A DNA stretch of 64,000 nt from positions 1-64,000 of the forward strand of contig CADASN010000006.1 in the NCBI GenBank assembly GCA_902790635.1, read 5' to 3'. Numbering within the stretch: the stretch's first letter is position 1; each line of letters opens with the position of its first letter. Source of the DNA: an uncultured Bacteroidia bacterium (GTDB lineage Bacteria; Bacteroidota; Bacteroidia; Bacteroidales; UBA932). A program made the position numbers and the translations under genes. A model generated the notes under the pieces. That model was not told the origin of the DNA. It was given only the letters and a program-made list of their open reading frames with translations, and made no database searches. This document shows, one piece after another, positions 55,258 through 56,182 of this stretch.

Positions 55258-55316
55258 GACGGATGTCTGGAAGAAAAATGTGACCAAATGCGACCAAATT
55301 TTGGGGATACAAAAAA

Positions 55317-55362: not shown

Positions 55363-55416
55363 TTGTGCCTCGGGCGGGACTCGAACCCGCACGGCCGTTT
55401 CGGGCCAAGGGATTTT

Positions 55417-56141
55417 CTTGCCACTATGGCTTTCGCCACCATTCACTGTTTGTGGTCCGGACTATTCCTTCACCATGGATCTGAGATCTTTAGGTGTGTC
55501 GTGTCTAGTCTCTGCACCTTCCTCCCGTAGGAGGCTTGGCTCAAGATTACCATCGGCATGACCCGTTAAGGTTTCCTTGAATTTACGACATTCTACATCG
55601 TTCTTTTCAGAACGCGCACTCATTCGTGCTCTTCCTCGATAATTACTTGTAAGTGCATGGCAATTGGGGCAAAGTAATTGGAGATTCTCAAGTCGATTAT
55701 CTGAATTTAATCCATTTATATGATGAATCTCCAATGGAATTGGCTTATCCTGCCATGTATCAAGACCACATTTTTCACATCGGCATATCCCTGTAGTTCT
55801 TTTATAATGCTCGCGAAGCCTCCACGAACATTTATATGAAGAATTCTCTATAAAGATATCTTGATCTGAAAAACCACTCTTGGGTTTGAAAGCAAGGCCA
55901 ACATTCCAGCCTTGACCTGTAAAATGGGAACTATCCATTCCGTTATCGATTATTAATCGCTTAATAGTTCGATAGTTTCCACCAATAGGTTTAAGCCCTA
56001 ATTGTCGCAAAACACCGGCAACGGATTTGTTATCTGCAACCGCTTGTTTTACATCATCAATCGTGTAGCCTACTCTGCTCATATTGCAAAGTTAAGCTTT
56101 ACTCTCACGTTTTACAAATAATTATGTCAAAGAACTAGCAT
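55417..56141 (-). other. Group I intron (IC3-like) in tRNA-Leu(UAA)
   Basis: 725 bp. The exon before it ends in U and the intron ends in G, as group I rules require. Core motifs on the minus strand: P3 TGTCGT (55590-55585) with ACGACA (55502-55497), AAATTCAAGGAAACC (55584-55570, P4/P5), GAGCCAAGCC (55542-55533), GCAGAGACTAGAC (55515-55503, P7 5' side), GGAATAGTCC (55468-55459, P7 3' side) and GTGGCGAAAGCCA (55439-55427, P9). The order and sequence closely resemble the Azoarcus/Anabaena tRNA introns. An HNH reading frame fills 55462-56082. Confidence 0.9.
55462..56082 (-). CDS. HNH homing endonuclease encoded in the intron
   Basis: 206 residues. N-terminal helices (VGYTIDDVKQAVADNKSV, RTIKRLIIDNG) may bind DNA. 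The HNH domain (about 98-155) has CEKCGL and CPNCH as zinc Cys pairs, with PLEIHHINGLNSDNRLENLQLL as the catalytic HH...N block. The last 40 residues (KFKETLTGHADGNLEPSLLR onward) are coded by the intron core itself, and the TAG stop lies inside P7. Expected to cut intronless tRNA-Leu genes and promote intron spread; activity not shown. Confidence 0.88.
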   Translation of the reverse strand: MSRVGYTIDDVKQAVADNKSVAGVLRQLGLKPIGGNYRTIKRLIIDNGMDSSHFTGQGWNVGLAFKPKSGFSDQDIFIENSSYKCSWRLREHYKRTTGICRCEKCGLDTWQDKPIPLEIHHINGLNSDNRLENLQLLCPNCHALTSNYRGRARMSARSEKNDVECRKFKETLTGHADGNLEPSLLREEGAETRHDTPKDLRSMVKE

Positions 56142-56182
56142 AAGTCCCTCGTGTCTACCATTCCACCACCAAGGCGTGGTTG

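Follow-up and report, generated by a model that had tools for sequence, protein, structure and literature searches.

The tRNA-Leu(UAA) gene of an uncultured Bacteroidales bacterium is split between U34 and A35 by a group I intron of the tRNA type, and the intron carries an HNH endonuclease gene that begins in the P1 loop and reads through nearly the whole ribozyme core. We think it likely that this is a mobile intron whose RNA splices tRNA-Leu(UAA), whose HNH protein homes, and which phages carry; introns of the same kind are present in the tRNA-Leu(UAA) genes of phages.

A tRNA-Leu(UAA) gene split between U34 and A35

All parts of the split gene lie on the minus strand of the window, by which we mean the whole 64,000-nt stretch of DNA analyzed. 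The 34-nt 5′ exon (56142–56175) ends in ...GGGACTT at U34, the 725-nt intron (55417–56141) starts after U34 and ends in ...GGCAAG with a terminal G, and the 51-nt 3′ exon (55366–55416) starts with AAAATCCC at A35; joined, the two exons form an 85-nt tRNA-Leu(UAA). ARAGORN and Rfam at gathering thresholds both miss this gene in the window, where they find only two other tRNAs. A preliminary description, made by reading the sequence, had placed the split between U34 and A35 with an 85-nt joined product, and the exon and intron coordinates and the empty sites in relatives show this to be correct to the base. The exon-terminal U and intron-terminal G that it reported are likewise both present, and the U pairs with a G of the guide.

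The same description suggested a comparison with close relatives, and this yielded intronless tRNA-Leu(UAA) genes. With the joined 85-nt tRNA as the BLAST query, matches were found in 169 of 199 confamilial genomes; we fetched the best 30 of the matched loci, one being the window itself, and ARAGORN identified an intact tRNA-Leu(UAA) in all 29 of the others. Six of these empty sites are in congeners (G129, G171, G149, G157, G139, and G041). The predicted joined sequence, GGGACTTAAAATCCC, is present exactly in 28 of the 29, the sole exception (L214) differing in one stem pair.

Downstream of the tRNA, at 55280–55301 of the window, is the string GTGACCAAATGCGACCAAATTT, found once in the genome; L032 and L035 have a nearly identical string on the downstream side of tRNA-Leu(UAA). 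It is perhaps the scar of an integrated element.

A covarying ribozyme core

A covariance search of the intron, as the preliminary description had proposed, gives a match to Rfam model RF00028 at 55442–55660 (minus strand) with an E-value of 4.2e-10 and a score of 45.2 bits, which falls short of the gathering score of 50. Among the confamilial genomes, RF00028 reaches E 0.001 in 14 of 199 and the gathering cut-off in 9 of 199; two weak matches from this family search (L043 and L044) are by eye not tRNA introns and were dropped.

We built a 59-pair structure model spanning P1 to P10, including the P3/P7 pseudoknot, on 42 bare introns (211–249 nt) from relatives, chosen from 47 distinct bare introns with five omitted for longer P1 loops or as a near-copy. 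In these, 97.2% of model positions are paired and 19 pairs are changed on both sides; shuffled controls give a mean of 9.6 such pairs (0 of 500 as high), and slid controls give 3–7. The pairs of P7, P4, and P1 are invariant across the 42 introns, and are thus conserved and silent as to covariation. RNAalifold, unaided, recovers pairs of P1, P2, P3, P4, P5, P6, P8, and P9, and its prediction for the 42 introns lacks those of P7, P9.0, and P10. The relatives thus share a conserved group I core, P3 to P9 with the P3/P7 pseudoknot, that is backed by covariation.

Of the 59 pairs, 56 are retained in the window intron; the missing ones are two of the three in P10 and a distal one in P8. Its internal guide sequence GAGU (55618–55621) pairs with ACUU of the 5′ exon to form P1, with a U-G pair at the splice site; P3 is formed by UGUCGU (55585–55590) and ACGACA (55497–55502), and P7 by GCAGAGACU (55507–55515) and AUAGUCC (55459–55465), all on the minus strand. 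The earlier assignment to a group I intron of the tRNA type in a Bacteroidota genome is thus borne out by the RF00028 E-value, the covariation, and the 56 retained pairs. Introns of subgroup IC3 lack P5abc and P7.1/P7.2 and have tRNA hosts; the window intron likewise has no P5abc and no P7.1/P7.2 and sits in a tRNA, and on this anatomy it may belong to IC3. Its position, U34/A35 of tRNA-Leu(UAA), is the classic cyanobacterial and plastid intron site.

Occurrence of the intron and dependence on splicing

The core pattern is present in 48 of 151 sampled congeners, and in 22 of the 63 that are of high quality. Horizontal spread had been proposed for this intron, and such patchy occupancy, together with the empty sites in relatives, agrees with that proposal and also fits repeated loss. 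A search of named genomes with an 18-nt core string found at least 117 loci. Among the 117 listed, 83 are tRNA-Leu(UAA) genes split after U34, of which 82 are assigned to Bacteroidota (68 to Bacteroidales) and one is labelled only Bacterium; by intron length, 22 of the 83 are full, 11 intermediate, and 50 bare. Another 17 are other tRNAs, in contigs labelled Omnitrophota or DPANN archaea, including L067, which was printed as tRNA-Leu(CAA) and is probably a mis-joined tRNA-Asn. The remaining 17 have no tRNA that the script could resolve, most being cut by a contig end.

Across the phylum, RF00028 matches occur in 30 of 395 genomes. We read 29 of these loci, with anticodons assigned by eye, and found six tRNA-Leu(UAA), two tRNA-Asn-like, two with anticodon CAU, eight tRNA-Arg(UCU)-like, and some others in rRNA. 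The tRNA-Leu(UAA) introns among them (L284, L288, L291, L293, L294, and L295) belong to other families or classes of the phylum. The introns in tRNA-Arg(UCU)-like genes, also read by eye, are L277, L280 to L282, L285 to L287, and L301, and some genomes have several matches.

Two carriers, G084 (99% complete) and G014 (100%), have 37 tRNA matches each, and no tRNA-Leu(UAA) is found among their 17 tRNA matches of at least 81 nt, all of which are Leu (TAG, GAG, CAG, or CAA), Ser, or Tyr. Since these near-complete carriers show no other UAA gene, UUA decoding should depend on splicing, and splicing should be essential in carriers, as far as gene content indicates. The window genome has no second UAA gene among its 36 tRNA matches either, which is weak evidence because the genome is 83% complete (in 39 contigs) and has no Leu(UAG) match.

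These data bear on the alternative of a pseudogene or an assembly chimera, with the cell relying on another tRNA. An unseen second copy is possible in the incomplete and fragmented window genome, yet the two near-complete carriers show none; the same split gene is found in 83 of the 117 listed named loci with exons that fold as a tRNA, and compensatory changes maintain the ribozyme. This recurrence and the covarying ribozyme rule the alternative out for practical purposes, and we consider it extremely improbable. A sole-looking tRNA-Leu(UAA) gene thus carries a group I intron that is common in a large Bacteroidales genus, yet ARAGORN misses the window copy, and a tRNA-Leu(UAA) absent from a Bacteroidota genome is not necessarily an assembly gap.

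The HNH gene reads through the ribozyme core

The HNH gene (55462–56082, minus strand) codes for 206 aa. Its frame opens within the P1 loop, after the 5′ splice site and before the guide, and passes through P2, P3, P4, P5, P6, the 5′ strand of P7, and P8 to reach the AUAGUCC strand of P7, whose UAG serves as the stop codon. Besides lying within the intron, the gene is thus read through nearly the whole ribozyme core. An unlinked HNH gene beside the tRNA is ruled out, as the frame starts within the intron and ends in P7.

The frame scores 24.5 bits against Pfam HNH (cut-off 21.4), with the domain at residues 102–143 (55654–55779, minus strand) and the HNH histidine, asparagine, and CxxC residues conserved; residues 4–172 match the phage HNH endonucleases of PHROG 10822 at E 1.6e-43. 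Residues 153–206 (55465–55626, minus strand) are encoded by the ribozyme core, overlapping P2 to P8 and P7, and are predicted to be almost wholly disordered, with AlphaFold pLDDT under 50 in residues 153–198 and 202–206.

Upstream of the gene is a promoter-like site of the Bacteroidetes type, TTTG-N20-TAACTTTG (56087–56118, minus strand), 4 nt before the ATG. The string TTTG-N17-22-TANNTTTG, the Bacteroidetes promoter consensus, has both boxes exact upstream of the ATG in 10 of 25 full-length introns, compared with 0.4% of shuffles, and in all ten the ATG follows by 4–8 nt; the second box is present in 13 of the 25 (in two of them elsewhere in the loop), compared with 8.2% of shuffles. The site is probably used as the promoter of the HNH gene.

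Of the 276 pairs among 24 Bacteroidales HNH genes, 12 have a usable dS; in these, dN/dS is 0.035–0.21 with a median of 0.087, and the window gene compared with L150 gives 0.04, with dS at 2.0. Most of the 276 pairs are close to dS saturation, and these figures are rough. Rough as they are, the values are low and point to purifying selection on the gene. The earlier suggestion that the HNH protein helps the intron to spread is made plausible by this selection, with the cutting itself presumed. Near-full copies of the gene are in the minority: matches of this kind to the window protein occur in 15 of 151 congeners, six of them with at least one stop within the matched stretch, many further congeners match only its core-encoded tail, and several introns of intermediate length (for example L083, L105, and L117) retain HNH fragments. 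The state of the intron, full or not, changes 19 times on a quick, weak tree of the cores.

It is possible, although we doubt it, that the intron splices while the HNH gene of the window is a passenger, with inheritance now vertical and punctuated by occasional loss. The 50 bare introns among the 83 listed named tRNA-Leu loci show that the intron can be maintained when the gene is absent, the window protein has a tail predicted to be disordered, the zinc and helix-turn-helix part at the C terminus of the phage proteins described below is missing from the Bacteroidales copies, and loss could explain the patchy presence. Against this reading stand the low dN/dS values of the 12 usable pairs and of the window against L150, the conserved HNH residues and CxxC pairs, and the presence of two intron types with different cores at one site in one genus. 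We therefore continue to favor an intron mobilized by its HNH protein.

Phages carry the same intron

Several phages have introns of this kind in their own tRNA-Leu(UAA) genes. By eye, a bare intron is present in the 735-kb phage LR756501 and in the cultured phage Atu_ph07; in the 595-kb phage LR756511 the P6 loop of the intron holds an HNH gene belonging to the same family. Further tRNA-Leu(UAA) introns were found in IMG/VR, by script in L051/L052 and L055/L056 (two same-core pairs) and L058, and by eye in L053, L215, and L220; on another contig (L062/L218) the intron is in a tRNA of unclear identity. A Klebsiella phage record (OU509535) has the intron in a tRNA with anticodon CAU, and four more Klebsiella records match. 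The same core also splits phage family A DNA polymerase genes, with both halves identified by Pfam in L063, the first half in L050, and a reading by eye in L059. Core matches occur in 76 phage records, many of them Staphylococcus phages, and five plasmid records (four Bradyrhizobium, one Pontibacillus) match part of the core.

A 2014 review of bacterial group I introns states that all introns so far observed in phages are in protein genes, despite the many phage tRNA genes (PMC3984707), and the phage tRNA introns described here contrast with that statement. The word "intron" is absent from the main texts of the papers on Atu_ph07 and on huge phages. Phage tRNA genes with introns, including that of a cultured phage, make phage-to-host transfer of the ribozyme testable.

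Some other arrangements were also seen. In the crAss-like phage cr111_1 (L255, 2438–3020), an HNH gene lies directly after a tRNA-Leu and is followed by an apparent second tRNA 3′ end; we did not see an intron within this segment. Introns of the same type are present in tRNA-Asn or tRNA-Thr genes of L064, L065, L096, L108, L154, and L160, whose contigs are archaeal by label only (Pacearchaeota, Woesearchaeota, and Nanoarchaeota); L064 is flanked by genes for FtsZ and a tRNA methyl transferase family protein, and L154 by one for a methionyl-tRNA synthetase family protein. The Omnitrophota-type tRNA-Asn/Thr introns of L070, L110, L133, L137, and L061 have a different short HNH gene, which also reads into the core. 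A 2018 survey counts 39 of 39 archaeal group I introns in rRNA, and the tRNAscan-SE 2.0 paper ascribes a missing fMet or Ile2 gene in 36 genomes to group I introns.

A ribozyme core between two predicted domains of a phage protein

In the phage copy L215, the HNH frame passes through the core into the P8 loop and there encodes a zinc (CxxC) and helix-turn-helix-like domain; L053, L055, L058, and L218 have the same architecture. The core-encoded residues 153–203 are the only longer stretch with pLDDT under 50 in the L215 model, and the core of the phage copies is thus predicted to encode a disordered linker between two domains. No such zinc and helix-turn-helix part follows at the C terminus of the Bacteroidales copies, and one phage copy (L220), with its gene in the P1 loop and no P8 part, resembles them. 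A Foldseek search of the phage HNH model against the PDB found nothing at E 0.001 or better, with I-HmuI at E 4.0.

The phage intron protein matches PHROG 10822 over residues 12–275. Four phage relatives (L231, L235, L237, and L225) have the same two protein parts joined by a different linker, and the core pattern is absent from their fetched flanks. Because these core-free relatives keep both parts with another linker, the ribozyme appears to sit in the linker of a two-domain protein gene. A further phage relative of the HNH gene (L230, 3001–3600) has a loose core-like pattern directly after it, perhaps another intron.

We tentatively suggest, on a case that is close to evenly balanced, that the ribozyme became nested in the linker of its own endonuclease and that phage vectors seeded the unit, perhaps more than once, into tRNA-Leu(UAA) genes of Bacteroidales, with loss there first of the C-terminal domain and later of the entire gene. 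If this is true, tRNA genes that phages and hosts share in sequence would serve generally as a route by which ribozymes are exchanged. In the titles and abstract openings of the open PMC literature, which covers few subscription journals and no preprints, we found no report of a core between two protein domains, nor of a Bacteroidota tRNA split by a group I intron.

A second intron type and the direction of transfer

In a midpoint-rooted tree with 22 phage relatives, which omits L076 with its short frame, the 24 Bacteroidales HNH proteins group together in a single clade (100/100). A second type of intron, with a different core, occupies the same tRNA-Leu(UAA) site in 7 of 151 congeners. The tRNA-Leu(UAA) 3′ exon is present in all six of its loci that were fetched and the 5′ exon was found by pattern in five; in the sixth the 5′ exon was identified by eye, as was G177. 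The three HNH proteins from introns of this type group in a separate clade (100/98), to which phage L251 is closest by path, and none of 200 bootstrap trees joins the HNH proteins of the two types. In an AU test excluding L339 and L341, a single clade of all Bacteroidales intron HNH proteins has p 0.103, so one origin of these proteins is not rejected; an initial rejection (AU p 0.00015) was withdrawn since the tested group omitted L341, which lies inside that clade.

L339 (from G631) and L341 (from G677) have a bare second-type intron in tRNA-Leu(UAA) and a free-standing HNH gene adjoining the tRNA gene, just downstream in L339 and adjacent on the other strand in L341. This fits endonucleases acting in trans.

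A quick, unrooted tree of the ribozyme cores (126 rows and 197 columns, omitting L067 and L284) places the tRNA-Leu introns apart from the tRNA-Asn/Thr introns and mixes phage and Bacteroidota copies, at low support. That relatives sit in phage tRNA genes suggests that phages help to spread the intron, and phage-to-host transfer is our best reading of these sequences.

In a different ancestry, the tRNA-Leu(UAA) intron of cyanobacteria or plastids would have given rise to this one, through old vertical descent or direct transfer between bacteria, with phages acquiring their copies from bacteria. We find this unlikely: the insertion site is that of the classic intron, and tRNA-Leu(UAA) introns are indeed found elsewhere in the phylum, in other families and classes, whereas the Bacteroidales HNH proteins fall among phage HNH proteins and phage DNA polymerase genes, too, are split by this ribozyme core. 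Transfer from phages to hosts remains our preferred direction.

A model for splicing and spread

For splicing, promoter use, DNA cutting, and phage transfer with its direction, we infer the following scheme. In the folded pre-tRNA, the guide GAGU would base-pair with the last nucleotides of the 5′ exon, placing a U-G pair at the splice site; guanosine would attack, and the ribozyme would ligate U34 to A35, restoring a tRNA that reads UUA. The HNH protein would probably be made from a separate short-leader mRNA, with its promoter inside the P1 loop, and would cleave the anticodon arm of tRNA-Leu(UAA) alleles that lack the intron, with repair then copying the intron in. Phages whose own tRNA-Leu(UAA) genes contain this kind of intron would be the likely carriers between hosts, the protein belonging to a family of phage HNH endonucleases. 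Many copies lack the HNH gene and persist as bare introns.

Comparison with known systems

The cyanobacterial and plastid tRNA-Leu(UAA) intron is a group I (IC3) intron with a small core that lacks P5abc, a U-G pair at the 5′ splice site, and a terminal G. The intron described here is like it in anatomy, sharing the host tRNA, the U34/A35 site, the small core, the U-G pair, and the terminal G, and differs in its Bacteroidales host and in the P1-loop HNH gene that is read through the core.

The tRNA-fMet intron of Synechocystis PCC 6803 has a PD-(D/E)XK endonuclease gene in P1 that overlaps 61 nt of P1/P2 (Table 1 of PMC3073962). The two introns are alike in having a tRNA host and an endonuclease gene in P1 that overlaps the core; here, however, the overlap is ~160 nt (55462–55621), from the guide to P7, and the enzyme is of the HNH type. 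Overlap of the end of an endonuclease gene with the ribozyme core is termed core creep, as in the phage td intron with I-TevI (PMC3073962), where the endonuclease frame similarly reaches into the core. Core creep extends one end of a gene, whereas the phage copies described here have the core between two predicted folded domains. The proteins themselves resemble the phage HNH endonucleases of PHROG 10822, which both the window protein (residues 4–172) and the phage intron protein (residues 12–275) match, and they differ from the relatives without a nearby core (L231, L235, L237, and L225) in the linker.
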